A stretch of DNA of 10,653 nt from contig USJY01000021.1 of assembly GCA_900555065.1 (NCBI GenBank), positions 1-10,653 of the forward strand, in the 5' to 3' direction. The DNA is from an uncultured Eubacteriales bacterium. Its GTDB lineage: Bacteria; Bacillota; Clostridia; Oscillospirales; UMGS1783. Position numbers and translations under genes: made by a program. This document shows positions 5,672 through 10,653 of this stretch, piece by piece (position 1 is the first letter of the stretch; the number at the start of each line of letters is the position of its first letter). Below the pieces are notes generated by a model, which saw nothing but the letters and a program-made list of their open reading frames with translations, was not told where the DNA came from and did no database searches.

Positions 5672-6286
5672 ATGAAAAGAACGCTTTCCATCCTGCTTGC
5701 CGTGATGATGCTTTTGTCGGTCGCGGCCTGCAACAATACGCCCGCTTCCCCCAAGCTGACCCGCGGCACCTGGACGGGAGACGAATACGCCAACGAATTT
5801 GCCGGTATCCGCTTCACGATTCCTGACGGCTTCGTCAAGCTCAGCGACGAAGAACTCTCCGAAGCGCTTTCCCTCGGCCAGGAGTTCATCGACGCGACCG
5901 AAGACGAACTGAAGCTTGCCGAGCTCAATACGGTGTATGACGCGATGGTGCAGGACCCCTCCACGGGCGTCAACGTAATCATCATGTTTGAAAAGGTTAC
6001 GAGCATCCAGGGCGGCGATAAGATGACCGCCGAAGATTATGTCTCGATCCTGACCGACCAGCTCAAGAACCAGACCAGCTTCAACTATGAAATCAGCGAG
6101 GCGAAGACAGAGGAGTTCTGCGGCGAGGAGTATGTCACCTTTGAGGCCGAGATGGTGGATTACCAGACTTTCCAGAAGATGTACGTCCGCAAGATCGGCA
6201 ACTACTTTGCAGGGATTACCTTCAGCGGCAACGCCGCTGCCGAGAACGGCTACCAGACCCTGATCGACGCGTTCCAGGCCTATTAA
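5672..6286 (+). CDS. Small lipoprotein of unknown function (paralogue 1)
   Basis: A 204-residue secreted protein anchored to the outer face of the membrane by lipid. It has a lipoprotein signal peptide (MKRTLSILLAVMMLLSVAAC) with lipobox VAAC and lipidated C20. The mature part opens with a short Thr/Pro/Ser linker, then a conserved-looking block TWTGDEYANEFAGIRFTIPDGF (33-54). An acidic, helical-looking stretch (about 55-80) follows, then alternating beta-like segments (VNVIIMFEKV, YVTFEAEMVDYQ, NYFAGITFSG). I recognise it only as the kind of short hypothetical lipoprotein common in Clostridia and do not assign a function. The ATG at 5672 is chosen because GAGGAG (5659-5664) precedes it and the signal peptide begins there; the in-frame ATG at 5609 lies upstream of the -10. 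It shares its start region with the next lipoprotein. Confidence 0.9.
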   Translation: MKRTLSILLAVMMLLSVAACNNTPASPKLTRGTWTGDEYANEFAGIRFTIPDGFVKLSDEELSEALSLGQEFIDATEDELKLAELNTVYDAMVQDPSTGVNVIIMFEKVTSIQGGDKMTAEDYVSILTDQLKNQTSFNYEISEAKTEEFCGEEYVTFEAEMVDYQTFQKMYVRKIGNYFAGITFSGNAAAENGYQTLIDAFQAY

Positions 6287-6307: not shown

Positions 6308-6348
6308 GGCGTCTCGTCCCCTTGTGTGGGGGCGGGGCGCCCTTTTTT
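6308..6348 (+). terminator. Intrinsic terminator after the first lipoprotein gene
   Basis: A 14-bp stem (6308-6321 with 6328-6341, including some G-U pairs) has loop TTGTGT and is followed by a run of six T (6343-6348). It lies 22 bases after the stop codon. Confidence 0.88.
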
Positions 6349-6408: not shown

Positions 6409-6906
6409 ATGAAAAGACAGTGGGCGACCTGCCTGTGCGCAGCGCTTGCAGTGCTGTGCGTTGGGTGCAGCAGCGTGTTCGATCCGGGCGTGCCCAAAGC
6501 GCTGGGCGAATGGGACGGGCGCGAGTATACAAATGCGTTTTTTGAGATTGCGCTCGCGCCGGGCGAGAGCTGGTCCGTTTCGGAAAACACCGGCGAGCCC
6601 ACCGAGCGGGACGGCTATTACCGGCGGTTGGAGGGCGTGCACGTGCACGGCGAATCGAGCTTTACAATCGCCTTTTATGCAGTCAACGCCGCGGACGGCA
6701 AGAACCTGGACGAACTGGCCGGGCCGCAGCCGGAATTTGTTATATTGGCAGGGCAAAACTATGCCGTCGTACAGCGTGAGGCGGCCGGACGGCTCGAGAC
6801 GCATTATTACAGGCAGGAGAGCGACGTTGTGCTGGACTTCTGCGTTTATGGCGACGTAATGAGCGCGGAGCTTGTAGAACTCCGCGCCGCATTGCGCACG
6901 CCGTAG
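6409..6906 (+). CDS. Small lipoprotein of unknown function (paralogue 2)
   Basis: A 165-residue lipoprotein whose signal peptide ends in lipobox CVGC (lipidated C20). The mature start (EWDGREYTNAFFEIALAPGESW, 34-55) lines up with TWTGDEYANEFAGIRFTIPDGF of the preceding gene, sharing W, G, EY, N, F, I, P and G at matching positions. The two therefore look like diverged paralogues. The rest is shorter than paralogue 1 and has beta-like segments (FTIAFYAVNA, PEFVILAGQNYAVVQ, HYYRQESDVVLDFCVYGD). No catalytic motif is seen and no function is assigned. It has its own promoter, RBS and terminator, so it can be expressed separately from the gene before it. Confidence 0.88.
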   Translation: MKRQWATCLCAALAVLCVGCSSVFDPGVPKALGEWDGREYTNAFFEIALAPGESWSVSENTGEPTERDGYYRRLEGVHVHGESSFTIAFYAVNAADGKNLDELAGPQPEFVILAGQNYAVVQREAAGRLETHYYRQESDVVLDFCVYGDVMSAELVELRAALRTP

Positions 6907-6918
6907 CATATCGAGCAG

Positions 6919-6957
6919 AAAAAAGTAGGGGAACCACCCGGTTCCCCTGCTTTTTTT
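6919..6957. terminator. Bidirectional intrinsic terminator
   Basis: The core stem GGGGAACC/GGTTCCCC (6928-6935 with 6940-6947) is extended by A-T, G-U and G-C pairs and by an A run (6919-6924) opposite a T run (6951-6957). It lies 13 bases after the second lipoprotein gene. The A and T runs on either side let it stop transcripts from both directions, including read-through from the minus-strand acylation genes. Confidence 0.9.
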
Positions 6958-7123
6958 CTGCGCACTGTCCGCGCCGCGTCCTGTACGAACGCCCGCCGCA
7001 ATCGTTGGCGGCCGGGTTCAGCGCCGCAGTCCGCGCCGTGCCGAACGCCGTGTCTGCAATGCGGCGCGGCGCGAAGGCATGCAACGCGCCGGCGCTCCGG
7101 ACGGACTGCGCCATCATGATCAC
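6958..7123. other. Gap between two terminators, nothing recognised
   Basis: A GC-rich spacer between the bidirectional terminator and the terminator of the SGNH genes. Short open frames exist on both strands, but their translations are Ala/Arg-rich and lack an RBS or family resemblance. No repeat or RNA gene is recognised. Confidence 0.5.
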
Positions 7124-7161
7124 AAAAGAAAAGGATAGCCGCAGGTTTCTGCGCGCTATCC
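7124..7161 (-). terminator. Intrinsic terminator of the MBOAT-SGNH operon
   Basis: On the minus strand GGATAGC plus CTGCG pairs with the second arm (7149-7161 with 7133-7144, one bulged base, loop of four). It is followed by TTTTCTTTT (plus strand 7124-7132). It lies 10 bases past the stop of the last gene. The promoter-proximal arm is also present after the upstream SGNH copy, without its partner arm. Confidence 0.88.
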
Positions 7162-7171
7162 CCGTCTGTCC

Positions 7172-8218
7172 TCAGGACGCTTCTGGATACAGATCTGCAC
7201 GACGCTCTTCCATTTCGGCCTGAAATCGTTCGTAATCCGCATTCAAGGTAGAAGCGACTGTCTCATCCCCCCTGCGGTCCGGTATCTGATAGTGCTCCAC
7301 CAGATAATCGGCCAAATACTGTGAAGTTTTCACGGCCCCATACGTGTTAATGTGCGTAGCGTTGTAGAAATCCGTCTGTACGTCCACGCCGGCGGCGTCC
7401 CATACGTCGTCAAGATTAAAATCCAGATAATCCACGCCATACTCGTCGGCCAACTGCTGTATGGCCAGATATTCCGCATAGGTCCAGTCAACCCGCGGCG
7501 CGGTGAGCAAAAGCACTTTGCAGCCCTTTTCCAAACACGCTTCAATCGCTTTCCCATAGTAGTAAGCCGAATCCTCGTTGACTGCCGCCGGCTGATCTAC
7601 CGGCGTCATATTGCGCTGGTCTTCCATGACTTCTAACTTGTAAACAGGCAAATATCCTCTTGTGTAATGGAACTCCCGATAAAATACATCTTCATTGAGA
7701 GATGCCCACCGGTCATGGTGTCGAATAATCGGGAAAAGGTAGTCAAACCAGGTTTGGTAATCGCTTTTCTGCACAATGGCGCTAATTGCTTCCAGTTTTT
7801 GCTTTGAAAGCCTGCGGGTATCCATTGTGGCGCGCAGATAAGACTCATTTTCTTCCTTGTCGACATCATATTCGTCAAATAAATACATCGTACCTATAAT
7901 GACTACTTCAGGGTTCTGATATTCCAGTCCTTCCGTCACGTTATAGTATGTGATCAGCGGCGCCTGCACACTTGTACAACGGGAATAAGAGGTAATTCCC
8001 TGCGCATCCCACATAACAAGAGGCGATACGCTCACCAGCAGTGAACTGCTCCCCACCGTCATAACGTCGATTGCATCTTCGGGAAGCGCATAAAAGGTTT
8101 CCGACTGATTTGTGGTTGTTCCCCAATACGGAGTCAGCAGACGGGTAAAGCCGAGACCCATCGCAAAAAACAGCAACAGGAATACGATCGGCTTTGCAAT
8201 CATTTTCCATTTCCCCAT
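7172..8218 (-). CDS. SGNH/DltD-like membrane-anchored protein, downstream copy
   Basis: A 348-residue protein with an N-terminal membrane anchor (about 7-26) and an extracellular domain of the SGNH/GDSL-hydrolase type that accompanies MBOAT acyltransferases (compare DltD, AlgJ/AlgX, PatB). The nucleophile block reads VGSSSL (55-60), where G56-S57-S58 stands for the GDS motif. The C-terminal block TDFYNATHINTYGA ends in the expected His (H289), but the residue three before it is Asn (N286) where many relatives have Asp. Such proteins finish or assist O-acylation of cell-wall polymers or exopolysaccharide outside the membrane. GAGGAGGGG (8224-8232) is the RBS. It is the last gene of the minus-strand operon. 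It is a tandem duplicate of the gene at 8468-9514: residues 133-291 are identical, whereas the first 132 residues differ at about 30 positions. Fold assignment is by motif and context; the acyl group and polymer are unknown. Confidence 0.85.
   Translation of the reverse strand: MGKWKMIAKPIVFLLLFFAMGLGFTRLLTPYWGTTTNQSETFYALPEDAIDVMTVGSSSLLVSVSPLVMWDAQGITSYSRCTSVQAPLITYYNVTEGLEYQNPEVVIIGTMYLFDEYDVDKEENESYLRATMDTRRLSKQKLEAISAIVQKSDYQTWFDYLFPIIRHHDRWASLNEDVFYREFHYTRGYLPVYKLEVMEDQRNMTPVDQPAAVNEDSAYYYGKAIEACLEKGCKVLLLTAPRVDWTYAEYLAIQQLADEYGVDYLDFNLDDVWDAAGVDVQTDFYNATHINTYGAVKTSQYLADYLVEHYQIPDRRGDETVASTLNADYERFQAEMEERRADLYPEAS
7346..7824 (-). repeat. Near-identical block shared by the two SGNH copies (copy 1)
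   Basis: Positions 7346-7824 match 8642-9120 at a constant offset of 1296 bases. I find a single difference (7382 versus 8678), so 442 bases (7383-7824) are identical in an unbroken run. Divergence starts abruptly on both sides. Confidence 0.95.
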
Positions 8219-8230
8219 AAAGTCCCCTCC

Positions 8231-8345
8231 TCAGAAACCATTGTAAATGAACATATTGGCGTCGAAACCGCTCCTATAAACGCCTAAAATAATCATGAAC
8301 GGCAGTCAAATTAACAATCCGGCGGAACACCAATACACGGCTGCC
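8231..8345 (-). pseudogene. Frameshifted remnant of the MBOAT gene 3' end
   Basis: Between the two SGNH genes the minus strand encodes a decayed copy of the last roughly 35 residues of the MBOAT protein. One frame gives VFRRIVNLTAVH, matching VFRWAVYLTAVY. After a 5-base deletion the next frame gives MIILGVYRSGFDANMFIYNGF followed by a stop, matching VIIFGVYGIGFDAASFIYQGF. The stop lies 12 bases before the SGNH start, exactly as in the intact MBOAT-SGNH junction, and at the same 1296-base offset. Resemblance fades beyond about 8345. It should be non-functional as an enzyme, though its stop still overlaps the RBS of the next gene. Confidence 0.88.
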
Positions 8346-8440
8346 AGCGATATATGAAAACCGTCGCTCTCCCCGCTATAGGGGTATTTTAGTGCGCGAC
8401 AGGATATCGAATCCCCAAACGCTCCGCCTTCCTCAATCTT
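8346..8440. other. Degenerate junction sequence between duplicated units
   Basis: This stretch links the recognisable MBOAT remnant to the truncated terminator after the upstream SGNH gene. By position it should derive from further inside the MBOAT gene, but only faint similarity is visible. A short CCCC-GCTATA-GGGG inverted repeat (about 8377-8390) has no T run on the minus strand and is unlikely to terminate the operon. Confidence 0.5.
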
Positions 8441-8467
8441 CTGTCTGCACGCTATCCCCGTCTGTAC
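8441..8467 (-). other. Half-terminator after the upstream SGNH gene
   Basis: The sequence CTGCACGCTATCC followed by CCGTCTGT (on the plus strand) matches the first-transcribed arm of the real terminator at 7149-7161 and its flank. The partner arm and the T run are replaced by unrelated sequence. Transcription should therefore continue into the downstream copy. Confidence 0.8.
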
Positions 8468-9514
8468 TCAGGGCTCTTCCGGAAACAGTTCTGCGCGGCG
8501 CTCTTCCATTTCGGTTCGAAACCTCTCATAATCCGCATTATAGGCAGCGGCCACAGTTTCGTCGGTCCGGCGGTCCGGTATCTGATAGTGCTCCGCCAAG
8601 TAATCCGCTAAATACTGTGAAATTTTCACGGCCCCATACGCGTTAATGTGCGTAGCGTTGTAGAAATCCGTCTGTACATCCACGCCGGCGGCGTCCCATA
8701 CGTCGTCAAGATTAAAATCCAGATAATCCACGCCATACTCGTCGGCCAACTGCTGTATGGCCAGATATTCCGCATAGGTCCAGTCAACCCGCGGCGCGGT
8801 GAGCAAAAGCACTTTGCAGCCCTTTTCCAAACACGCTTCAATCGCTTTCCCATAGTAGTAAGCCGAATCCTCGTTGACTGCCGCCGGCTGATCTACCGGC
8901 GTCATATTGCGCTGGTCTTCCATGACTTCTAACTTGTAAACAGGCAAATATCCTCTTGTGTAATGGAACTCCCGATAAAATACATCTTCATTGAGAGATG
9001 CCCACCGGTCATGGTGTCGAATAATCGGGAAAAGGTAGTCAAACCAGGTTTGGTAATCGCTTTTCTGCACAATGGCGCTAATTGCTTCCAGTTTTTGCTT
9101 TGAAAGCCTGCGGGTATCCAATACGGCGCGCAGCCCGGGCTCACGGTCCGTATGGTCTACATCATACTCCTGAAATAAGTACATCGTACCGATAATTACC
9201 ACTTCAGGGTTTTGATATTCCAATCCCTCCGCCACGTTATAGTATGTGATCAGCGGCGCCTGCACGCTCGAGCTGCGGGAAAAGGAAGTAATTCCGTGAG
9301 ATCCCCACATGGCAAGCGGAGATACGCCGGACCGCAACGAACTGCTTCCCACAATCATGACATCAATCGAATCCGCAGGAAGATCATAAAAGGTTGCTGA
9401 CTGATTCGTGCTTGACTCCCAGAACGGGGTTAACAAACGGGTAAAGCCAAGCCCCATCGCCAAAAACAGTAACAGGAATACGATCGGCTTTGCAATCATT
9501 TTCCATTTTCCCAT
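8468..9514 (-). CDS. SGNH/DltD-like membrane-anchored protein, upstream copy
   Basis: A 348-residue paralogue of the protein encoded at 7172-8218, of the same length and with no gaps. It has the same N-terminal anchor (about 7-26), nucleophile-type block VGSSSL (55-60) and terminal FYNATHIN block with H289 and the same N286. It differs from its twin mainly in residues 31-132, around the nucleophile block (SSSLRSGVSPLAMW against SSSLLVSVSPLVMW) and in a loop near 115-132, and again in the last 55 residues. If both are active they may differ in substrate or partner. It starts 12 bases after the MBOAT stop, and its RBS (GAGGA, 9524-9528) overlaps that stop, so it is translationally coupled to the acyltransferase. 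It is probably the original partner gene. Role by context: extracytoplasmic step of polysaccharide or cell-wall O-acylation. Confidence 0.87.
   Translation of the reverse strand: MGKWKMIAKPIVFLLLFLAMGLGFTRLLTPFWESSTNQSATFYDLPADSIDVMIVGSSSLRSGVSPLAMWGSHGITSFSRSSSVQAPLITYYNVAEGLEYQNPEVVIIGTMYLFQEYDVDHTDREPGLRAVLDTRRLSKQKLEAISAIVQKSDYQTWFDYLFPIIRHHDRWASLNEDVFYREFHYTRGYLPVYKLEVMEDQRNMTPVDQPAAVNEDSAYYYGKAIEACLEKGCKVLLLTAPRVDWTYAEYLAIQQLADEYGVDYLDFNLDDVWDAAGVDVQTDFYNATHINAYGAVKISQYLADYLAEHYQIPDRRTDETVAAAYNADYERFRTEMEERRAELFPEEP
8642..9120 (-). repeat. Near-identical block shared by the two SGNH copies (copy 2)
   Basis: Partner of the block at 7346-7824. It covers residues 133-291 of the upstream SGNH protein, with only one synonymous base difference seen. 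Outside it the two genes differ at many positions, in both their 5' and 3' parts. Confidence 0.95.
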
Positions 9515-9526
9515 AAGATCTTTTCC

Positions 9527-10653
9527 TCAGAAGCCCTGGTAGATAAACGAAGCGGCGTCGAAACCGATCCCATAAACACCGAAGATAATCACGGCGTAAA
9601 CAGCCGTTAAATACACGGCCCAACGAAACACAATGTTCTGCCGGTCCAAAGATTCCCGCAGCTTGTACCCCTTTTCCTGCAAAAGGCTGACCACAAAGAA
9701 CACGAAAATCGCAAGGATAAGCAAATGAAAATTATTCGCGTCTAAACCCATTTCATATAAGGAACCGTCCACCAGTACCCATGGGTTAAACGTGGTAAAG
9801 GTGGATAAAAGCATGGAACACGCCGCGCGAAATCCTTCAGCCAGGGCGAAATACTTCCCAATAAACACCAGGAAAAAGGTGGTGAGTAAACGGAACAGGC
9901 CCCAACTGAAAGTATGGGTATTCACAAGCTTATGCTTATCATTGAAATTCTCCAAAAGGGGAGAAAATAAAATTCCTAACATGATAAGGCCGCCATTGTA
10001 CACGCCGAACATGATATATTTCCAACTGGCGCCATGCCAAATACCTACCAGAAGGAATACAATCCCCATGGCAATACAGGTGGGGATCTGTTTACCCCAG
10101 TAGTTCCCAAACCATTTTCTGGTCTTTTTCCCTAACTTGGCGAACGCTTTGGACAGCGAGATCGGGTAAAGGACATAGTCCTTCATCCACGAACCCAATG
10201 TGATGTGCCACCTGCGCCAGTATTCTGCAATCGATTTTGCAAAATGCGGCCGCCGGAAATTTTGCACCATCTCAATGCCGCAGCATTCCGCAATACCAAT
10301 GGAAATATCCATTCCGCCGGAAAAGTCGGCATAGACCTGCGCCATAAAGACAAGAACCGTAACGGCGATTTCCAGGCCGGCAAAATCCGCACGATTCTGC
10401 AAAACATAGCTGGTCAGGATCGCGGCTCTGTCCGCAATCACCAGCTTTTTGAAGTAACCCCATAAAATCAGTTCTACCCCATGTTTGAACCGGGTATAAT
10501 CGAATTTATGCGGCGCGTACAGCTGATGGGCAAGCTGGTCGTACCGGCTGATCGGCCCCTGCACAATTTGCGGAAAAAACGAAACAAACAACGCAAATTT
10601 AGCAAGGTTGCGGTCAGGCGCATATTTGCCGCGGTACACATCGATCAAATAAC
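9527..10653 (-). CDS. MBOAT-family membrane O-acyltransferase (AlgI/DltB-like), N-terminus beyond the window
   Basis: The C-terminal 375 or so residues of a polytopic membrane acyltransferase that moves acyl groups (often acetyl or D-alanyl) across the membrane to surface polymers. The frame is open to the window edge and begins with YLIDVYRGK, an internal AlgI-family stretch. The true start therefore lies outside; a TTG at 10648 is part of this stretch and is not a start. Family marks in order are FFPQIVQGPISRY, DFSGGMDISIGIA, NFRRPHFAKSIAEYWRRWH with the first conserved His (position 148 counted from the TTG), DYVLYPISLSK, and GIWHGASWKYIMFGVYNG with the catalytic His (205). Several hydrophobic segments follow to the C-terminus. 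Full-length relatives have about 470-500 residues, so roughly 100 are missing here. It is the first visible gene of an operon with the two SGNH copies. Its base composition is lower in GC than the genes to the left. Acyl donor and acceptor cannot be told. Confidence 0.94.
   Translation of the reverse strand, partial: YLIDVYRGKYAPDRNLAKFALFVSFFPQIVQGPISRYDQLAHQLYAPHKFDYTRFKHGVELILWGYFKKLVIADRAAILTSYVLQNRADFAGLEIAVTVLVFMAQVYADFSGGMDISIGIAECCGIEMVQNFRRPHFAKSIAEYWRRWHITLGSWMKDYVLYPISLSKAFAKLGKKTRKWFGNYWGKQIPTCIAMGIVFLLVGIWHGASWKYIMFGVYNGGLIMLGILFSPLLENFNDKHKLVNTHTFSWGLFRLLTTFFLVFIGKYFALAEGFRAACSMLLSTFTTFNPWVLVDGSLYEMGLDANNFHLLILAIFVFFVVSLLQEKGYKLRESLDRQNIVFRWAVYLTAVYAVIIFGVYGIGFDAASFIYQGF

Follow-up and report, generated by a model that had tools for sequence, protein, structure and literature searches.

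The window analysed here is a stretch of 10,653 nucleotides (nt) from an uncultured Eubacteriales bacterium (contig USJY01000021.1 of assembly GCA_900555065.1). It carries a minus-strand gene cluster in which an MBOAT acyltransferase gene, running off the window, is followed by two genes for SGNH proteins. We call the upstream SGNH gene UP and the downstream one DOWN (Table 1). The MBOAT:SGNH ratio in the window is 1:2, as a first-pass annotation of the sequence had noticed. That annotation also claimed that both SGNH genes and the end of the MBOAT gene repeat at a constant offset of 1296 bases, and the self-alignment bears this out. At an offset of exactly 1296, positions 7148–8296 align without any gap to 8444–9592, with 141 mismatches in 1149 positions, and BLAST returns a single ungapped alignment of 1148 bases at 88%. 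Both intact SGNH genes lie in the repeat, together with the end of the MBOAT gene upstream. Identity is at background before 7148 and fades after ~8303, beyond which the best gapped alignment of the copies holds several gaps. Mismatches are uneven along the repeat. Outside one identical block of 442 nt, 30-base blocks range from 57 to 97% identity.

The downstream copy ends in a complete intrinsic terminator. RNA covering 7115–7175 folds with a z score of −4.94, and none of 200 shuffles is as good. The counterpart in the inner copy, 8405–8467, reaches −7.8 kcal/mol (z +0.30) and folds no better than shuffles, as does the longer inner stretch 8330–8467 (z −0.16). Read on the minus strand, both copies carry GGGGATAGCG(C/T)GCAGA and then diverge one base into the loop, past the 5′ arm. 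The inner copy has kept one terminator arm only and the outer copy the full hairpin, which agrees with the first-pass annotation. Its further claim, that the duplicated segment ran from the interior of the MBOAT gene to the terminator loop, holds at the terminator end, where homology stops one base into the loop, but leaves 98 bases over. Terminators were judged by folding because the consensus scan is a weak judge here: it lists 17 sites where 11.4 are expected and scores the operon's own terminator as 5 pairs. The sole minus-strand terminator-like site that the scan lists in 8219–8467 is 8333–8319, a weak site of 6 pairs with 3 GC, and its surroundings fold no better than shuffles (8296–8350, z +0.98; 8219–8345, z +0.85). 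No promoter-like site of at least 9 of 12 was found in the scan of the same strand and interval, the best being 8 of 12, and Rfam gave no family at gathering score. With the 3′ arm missing, the internal terminator cannot form, and a single transcript therefore probably carries UP and DOWN, transcription likely continuing into DOWN. The Shine–Dalgarno (SD)-like sequence of DOWN lies just past the stop of an MBOAT remnant (TTCTGAGGAGGGGACTTTATG; UP counterpart TTCTGAGGAAAAGATCTTATG). By eye, the GGAAAAG of UP is weaker than the GGAGGGG of DOWN.

The MBOAT gene matches PF03062 with 57.8 bits at a cut-off of 27, and a protein of 533 residues, P0023, matches the window's part of it at 100%. Its C-terminus, FIYQGF, fits the FXYXXF hexapeptide of acyl shuttles. 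Between the SGNH genes, the best match of the remnant 8231–8345 within the window is 9527–9641 with 60% identity, while the next place reaches 42% and the mean is 25%. With gaps allowed, the alignment of the remnant with the MBOAT tail reaches a score of 91, whereas 200 shuffles reach 49 at most. The remnant is therefore real, and the earlier proposal of a tandem duplication with a truncated MBOAT tail between the SGNH copies stands on the ungapped repeat and on this match. The last 21 codons of the remnant read MIILGVYRSGFDANMFIYNGF, compared to VIIFGVYGIGFDAASFIYQGF in the MBOAT gene. The frame is broken upstream of them, so the MBOAT tail cannot be encoded in one frame. The remnant keeps an FXYXXF-type end, yet by eye no SD sequence precedes its ATG. 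When ends of the form F.Y..[FYI]-stop were sought loosely outside MBOAT open reading frames (ORFs), 123 sequences yielded 29 of them. The window's end alone reads as an MBOAT tail, and the other 28, from the 122 other sequences, look like chance. We also considered the remnant as a DltX-like gene and dropped this, the frame being broken and the 21-codon ORF being judged too small to hold the motif as well as a membrane helix. The 98-nt linker resembles neither the MBOAT gene nor the terminator flank nor any other part of the window beyond the level of shuffles. A search of 8219–8467 in plasmids gave no match, and 7100–10653 gave three partial matches in phages, all of them unannotated human faecal records. 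The MBOAT region at ~10173–10600 shows ~72% DNA similarity to MT839496, a 4.2-kb record of human faecal origin that is filed as phage and carries no annotation.

Table 1. Features of the duplicated MBOAT–SGNH locus, in order of transcription (positions in the window)
Feature	Position	Strand	Evidence
MBOAT acyltransferase gene, 3′ 374 codons, running off the window	9527..10653	-	Pfam PF03062, E value 1.5e-15
UP, upstream SGNH gene	8468..9514	-	ORF, 348 residues, N-terminal helix followed by SGNH fold
Putative conversion tract in UP	8679..9120	-	442 nt identical to 7383-7824
Orphan 5′ arm of the duplicated terminator	8444..8459	-	Sequence comparison and folding
98-nt linker from terminator arm to MBOAT remnant	8346..8443	-	No match above shuffles
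MBOAT 3′ remnant	8231..8345	-	Last 21 codons in frame from ATG, ending FIYNGF-stop
Duplicated stretch after the MBOAT stop	8219..8230	-	Carries SD-like GGAGGGG of DOWN; SD judged by eye
DOWN, downstream SGNH gene	7172..8218	-	ORF, 348 residues, 88% identical to UP
Putative conversion tract in DOWN, probable donor	7383..7824	-	442 nt identical to 8679-9120
Complete intrinsic operon terminator, stem-loop and T-rich tail	7124..7163	-	Fold −26.2 kcal/mol, z −4.94

The identity between UP and DOWN is a mosaic. At the protein level, it amounts to 73% in the N-half (residues 31–127), 99% in the middle (132–205), 100% in the core (206–290) and 78% in the C-terminal part (291–348). The synonymous rate dS is 0.81 for codons 1–131, 0.01 for 132–279 and 0.60 for 280–348, with a ratio of nonsynonymous to synonymous rates (dN/dS) of ~0.17 in both outer parts. 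When the same mismatches are shuffled 5000 times, the longest identical run is 116 nt, compared to the 442 nt observed. Synonymous sites are identical in the middle only, which is beyond the reach of protein-level selection and therefore points to gene conversion; an assembly effect is the less likely alternative.

Among 5.8 billion proteins, phmmer detected 12 relatives of UP, 10 of them at 62–96%. Nine of 12 rows entered the segment comparison and the trees; P0008, a fragment, and P0009 and P0010, both error-laden, were left out. Lineages are defined here as protein clusters: P0001–P0004 group with the window (91–96% to UP), and P0005–P0007 form a second lineage (80–82%). By their N-half, UP, P0001, P0002, P0003 and P0006 belong to an up type, and DOWN, P0004, P0005 and P0007 to a down type. 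Fifteen positions are fixed between the types, all within residues 31–127, and 26 are fixed between the lineages. A tree of residues 27–131 splits by type (100/99), while a tree of residues 206–348 splits by lineage (100/99). The duplication therefore predates the lineage split, and the later part of the gene has been exchanged within each lineage. Paralogues are closer within a lineage than to their orthologues for residues 206–348, but not for 27–131. By these comparisons the duplication is old, and it was followed by gene conversion that the first-pass annotation had not seen. A paralogue identity of 88% need not imply a recent duplication.

The middle segment gives a direction to the putative conversion. 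For residues 132–205, P0003, with an up-type N-half, shares only 70–73% identity with the five remaining members of its lineage. When UP, P0001 and P0002 are set aside as converted, the types are told apart by 26 positions, of which 16 lie in residues 31–127 and 10 in 146–198, so that the middle was also type-specific before conversion. UP bears a down-type residue at all 10 of these middle positions. We therefore take DOWN as the likely donor, and the direction of conversion was probably from DOWN to UP. In the C-terminal part, UP, P0003 and P0004 are identical (100%), as are DOWN and P0001 (100%). P0001 thus combines an up-type N-half with the C-terminus of DOWN, and P0004 shows the reverse.

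An SGNH-fold partner is encoded beside the MBOAT gene. The AlphaFold2 model of UP has a mean predicted local distance difference test score of 86.7, and Foldseek ranks DltD (6pfx_A) first with an E value of 2e-5, at a template-modelling (TM) score of only 0.36; PatB (7tlv) follows at 3e-4. In another listing of 50 matches, DltD is not among the matches listed. G56, S58, D283 and H289 are present in UP and DOWN alike, and D283 is conserved in 32 of 33 aligned proteins. Type-fixed residues lie at 54, 61 and 63 around the nucleophile loop (R/L at 61; G/S or C at 63) and, in the conserved block that follows, at 78, 81 and 82. By our own assignment of the block names, SGNH blocks I and II fall in the N-half, together with the loop that follows block III. 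Outgroups agree with the down type at positions 61 (17 of 17) and 78 (16 of 17), and with the up type at 63 (17 of 17), 82 (17 of 17) and 124 (12 of 17). At the remaining ten type-fixed positions they are mixed or match neither type. Judged by these outgroups, neither SGNH copy is simply ancestral. The divergence of the N-halves under purifying selection suggests that UP and DOWN are two specialised enzymes. With 15 type-fixed positions in two lineages, they form a natural pair for finding the residues that set the acceptor of MBOAT-dependent SGNH proteins.

Among the MBOAT-linked SGNH proteins, we also observe a group in which GDCE replaces the GxS nucleophile motif. The cysteine is found in 12 of the 33 proteins of alignment A5 (L010:7603-8673, L017, L019, L021, L022, L027, L028, L029, L033, L041, L048 and L064). 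A limited literature search turned up no matching paper on this group, and it would deserve a separate look.

The arrangement in other genomes was followed through the MBOAT gene. The genome_contigs set was scanned with the MBOAT alignment A4, as the wide SGNH alignment A3 has no stretch conserved enough for scanning. We took the best 80 of at least 585 loci, with a top MBOAT identity of 51–52%, and one Subdoligranulum record (L001), which gives 81 loci. Exactly one SGNH ORF lies directly downstream of the MBOAT gene in 64 of them. The others comprise L005 with two downstream, L051 with one downstream and one more in the locus, five with the SGNH ORF elsewhere and ten with none detected; L014 is counted among these ten despite a very weak match in one search. 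Among 38 further loci chosen for their SGNH match (L082–L119), 31 have one, L107 has two, two have it elsewhere and four are without an MBOAT ORF. Of the 58 genomes in the family of G168, 23 contain a match at an E value of 1e-30 or better, and each of the 23 contains exactly one. In the sample from the class of G005, 90 of 391 genomes match at 1e-10; 12 of the 90 carry several matches, which need not be adjacent. One MBOAT to one SGNH is the usual state in distant relatives, and tandem expansion recurs elsewhere.

L005, L107 and L120 carry, like the window, several SGNH genes (2, 2 and 4) behind one MBOAT gene, but no MBOAT tail was found between their SGNH copies. L120 belongs to loci L120–L122, which were picked for several SGNH matches and are excluded from the frequencies. 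Conservation is highest in the N-half for five of six L120 pairs and for L005; in L107 the N-half and the middle are about equal (60 vs 61%). The window is the reverse of L120 and L005 in this respect, which fits an overwriting of everything but the N-half. Three loci are of interest in their own right. L120:2948-9210 (G287:C26) holds an MBOAT gene and four tandem SGNH genes, the four BLAST-compared pairs being 60–76% identical. L121:2937-5228 (G217:C17) is an open frame of 764 codons that matches SGNH twice, as if two copies had fused. L106:3-2517 (G751) contains the best SGNH match in the searched genomes (37%, E value 2.2e-75); what lies directly upstream of it is no MBOAT but an AMP-binding enzyme, which we take from its sequence to be of the adenylation type.

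We conclude that the locus is best explained by an old partial tandem duplication with a split terminator, later gene conversion and two specialised SGNH enzymes served by one MBOAT, a reading to which we assign a probability of about 0.6. The duplication, the terminator split, the mosaic identity and the type-specific N-halves in two protein lineages are direct observations. An ancestral operon of MBOAT, SGNH and terminator would have been partially duplicated in tandem long ago. The resulting order would be MBOAT, UP, one terminator arm, linker, MBOAT tail, DOWN and terminator, and duplicated bases past the MBOAT stop would supply the SD-like sequence of DOWN. Conversion would then have homogenised the core within each lineage. 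In the genome of the window, the tract of 442 nt from DOWN to UP would additionally have overwritten the middle, which is type-specific in unconverted relatives, while purifying selection may have kept the N-halves diverged. The locus would thus display in one place how an operon grows: by duplication, with loss of half of the internal stop signal and retention of a ribosome-binding site. Afterwards, conversion erases the differences in one part and selection keeps the other part different.

Several points weigh against this reading. The linker fits no simple junction, and the weak terminator-like site at 8333–8319 falls within the MBOAT remnant, which lowered our confidence in the explanation. 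At position 286, the Asp of the DxxH motif by spacing, UP and DOWN both have Asn; P0006 has Asp, 15 of 33 aligned proteins of the wider set also have Asn, and all 17 outgroup proteins, of which one family supplies 16, have Asp or Glu. The tree of the middle segment, used for the donor direction, is weakly supported (76/84). Homogenisation is incomplete, as residues 291–348 group by lineage and yet UP and DOWN are 78% identical there. P0001, P0002, P0004 and P0007 sit on contigs of 1.4–2.3 kb, where chimeras across the 442 nt of identity are possible, and P0005 and P0006 of the second lineage may stem from different genomes. Finally, no close single-copy relative was reached, the best SGNH being 37% identical in the genomes and the best MBOAT 52% in the loci. 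We searched 391 genomes from the class of G005, 58 from the family of G168, 392 from the order of G168 and 397 from the family of G751, sets that partly overlap and of which all except the 58 were sampled from larger groups, and they contained no SGNH above 37%. Pattern searches for close SGNH relatives in genome_contigs and viral_contigs gave 10 and 2 matches, none related. MBOATs of 66–74% identity exist among the protein matches. The single-copy arrangement for which the first-pass annotation suggested a search is seen as the usual state of distant loci.

Two other origins exclude the one that we favour. In one of them, the whole module of MBOAT, SGNH and terminator was duplicated, or a diverged module was acquired, and a later deletion from the loop of the first terminator into the second MBOAT gene removed this MBOAT gene and the internal terminator arm. 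Such a history would account for a tail that still reads FIYNGF. Over the 32 alignable codons, the remnant and the MBOAT gene differ like constrained genes (dN/dS 0.22, dS 1.0), and 12 of 26 changes are synonymous, an excess with P = 0.007 under full neutrality. The countable codons are, however, the best-aligning part of the remnant, which biases towards constraint. The same excess has P = 0.12 if one side drifts and the other is constrained, and P = 0.98 if both are constrained. It does not distinguish the module from a partial duplication, and we dropped it as decisive evidence because P is 0.12 under the model of the first-pass annotation itself. Moreover, 5 of 12 positions that are invariant across seven aligned MBOATs are changed in the remnant, which weighs against lasting constraint, and the linker ought to resemble an MBOAT gene, yet does not. 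A module origin is in our view less likely than a partial duplication, though it deserves to be taken seriously. Markedly less probable is an assembly artefact, by which the 442 nt of identity or the tandem itself would come from strain variants or paralogues collapsed in the metagenome assembly. Several relatives do sit on short contigs. Both types, however, occur among proteins on longer contigs (P0003 on 36.7 kb, P0005 on 7.6 kb, P0009 and P0010 on 34–38 kb) and in two lineages. Two genes therefore exist, and an artefact could affect no more than the tract inside UP.

A further rival concerns function and is compatible with either origin. UP and DOWN could divide labour as in patA-patB-ape1, an operon that has one MBOAT gene and two SGNH genes, for PatB and Ape1 (PMC12148441). 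One SGNH protein would then act as a transferase, and the other would remove the group as an esterase. The type-fixed residues flanking the nucleophile would suit such a split, but the two proteins are 88% identical and alike at all five catalytic-site positions examined, and we give this idea little credence. It is also improbable, if marginally less so, that the locus is a standing device for module shuffling whose FIYNGF tail still matters, either by coupling translation or as what is left of an acyl shuttle. Conversion would here re-assort the middle and C-terminal parts between SGNH copies while the N-halves are held apart, and strains would carry different acyltransferase combinations. 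P0001, P0002, P0003 and P0004 do represent four segment combinations; the contigs of three are so short that they could be chimeras.

Elsewhere in the window, a 15-base tandem repeat at 1716–1789 (4.9 copies) adds GRTLA units to the gene of a SpaA/Cna_B-type surface protein (2334–370, minus strand). Two adjacent lipoprotein-like genes on the plus strand (5672–6286 and 6409–6906) have a lipobox by eye and no Pfam match. Each is followed by a terminator-like hairpin, at 6308–6341 (plus strand) and as an inverted repeat at 6919–6956.

The closest parallels come from known MBOAT–SGNH systems. With PatA/PatB(/Ape1) peptidoglycan O-acetylation, the window shares the adjacency of MBOAT and SGNH genes and the C-terminal FXYXXF of the MBOAT, and with patA-patB-ape1 also the ratio of one MBOAT to two SGNH genes. 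In PatA/PatB, acetyl is loaded by the MBOAT on the Tyr of the FXYXXF at its own C-terminus, from where the SGNH protein carries it to the polymer (PMC12148441). Because the window MBOAT ends in FIYQGF, we infer similar shuttle chemistry here: the MBOAT would load an acyl group onto the Tyr of this hexapeptide and hand it to either SGNH enzyme, which would transfer it onto a polymer of the cell envelope, in the manner of PatA/PatB and DltB/DltX/DltD. In the Dlt system of teichoic acid D-alanylation, the likeness is partial. For the window MBOAT, both the DltB model and solved chains of DltB give matches, but the score stays below the DltB cut-off of 375 (TIGR04091), with 142 bits for the full-length P0023 and 127.5 for the window fragment, and DltD is ranked first for the SGNH model, but at the low TM-score given above. 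DltX is a separate microprotein, whereas the hexapeptide of the window sits on the MBOAT. AlgI is the MBOAT of alginate acetylation, and AlgJ and AlgX are distinct proteins that are not known to be recent tandem paralogues. The likeness to the window lies in the number of SGNH-like proteins, two. A title cited in PMC12148441 gives AlgJ and AlgX separate roles in one acetylation pathway. Among the papers listed in searches of open-licence PMC on MBOAT–SGNH operons, on terminator-splitting or tandem duplication and on conversion, none concerned this case. Concerted evolution of bacterial paralogues is described as paralogues of one lineage being more alike than orthologues (PMC6053082). The window differs in that only part of the gene appears homogenised, while the N-half escapes. 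This route to a larger operon is well preserved here, yet it is not unprecedented, each component being known in kind. What stands out is that an old duplication, a split terminator and a partial conversion sparing the N-half occur together.

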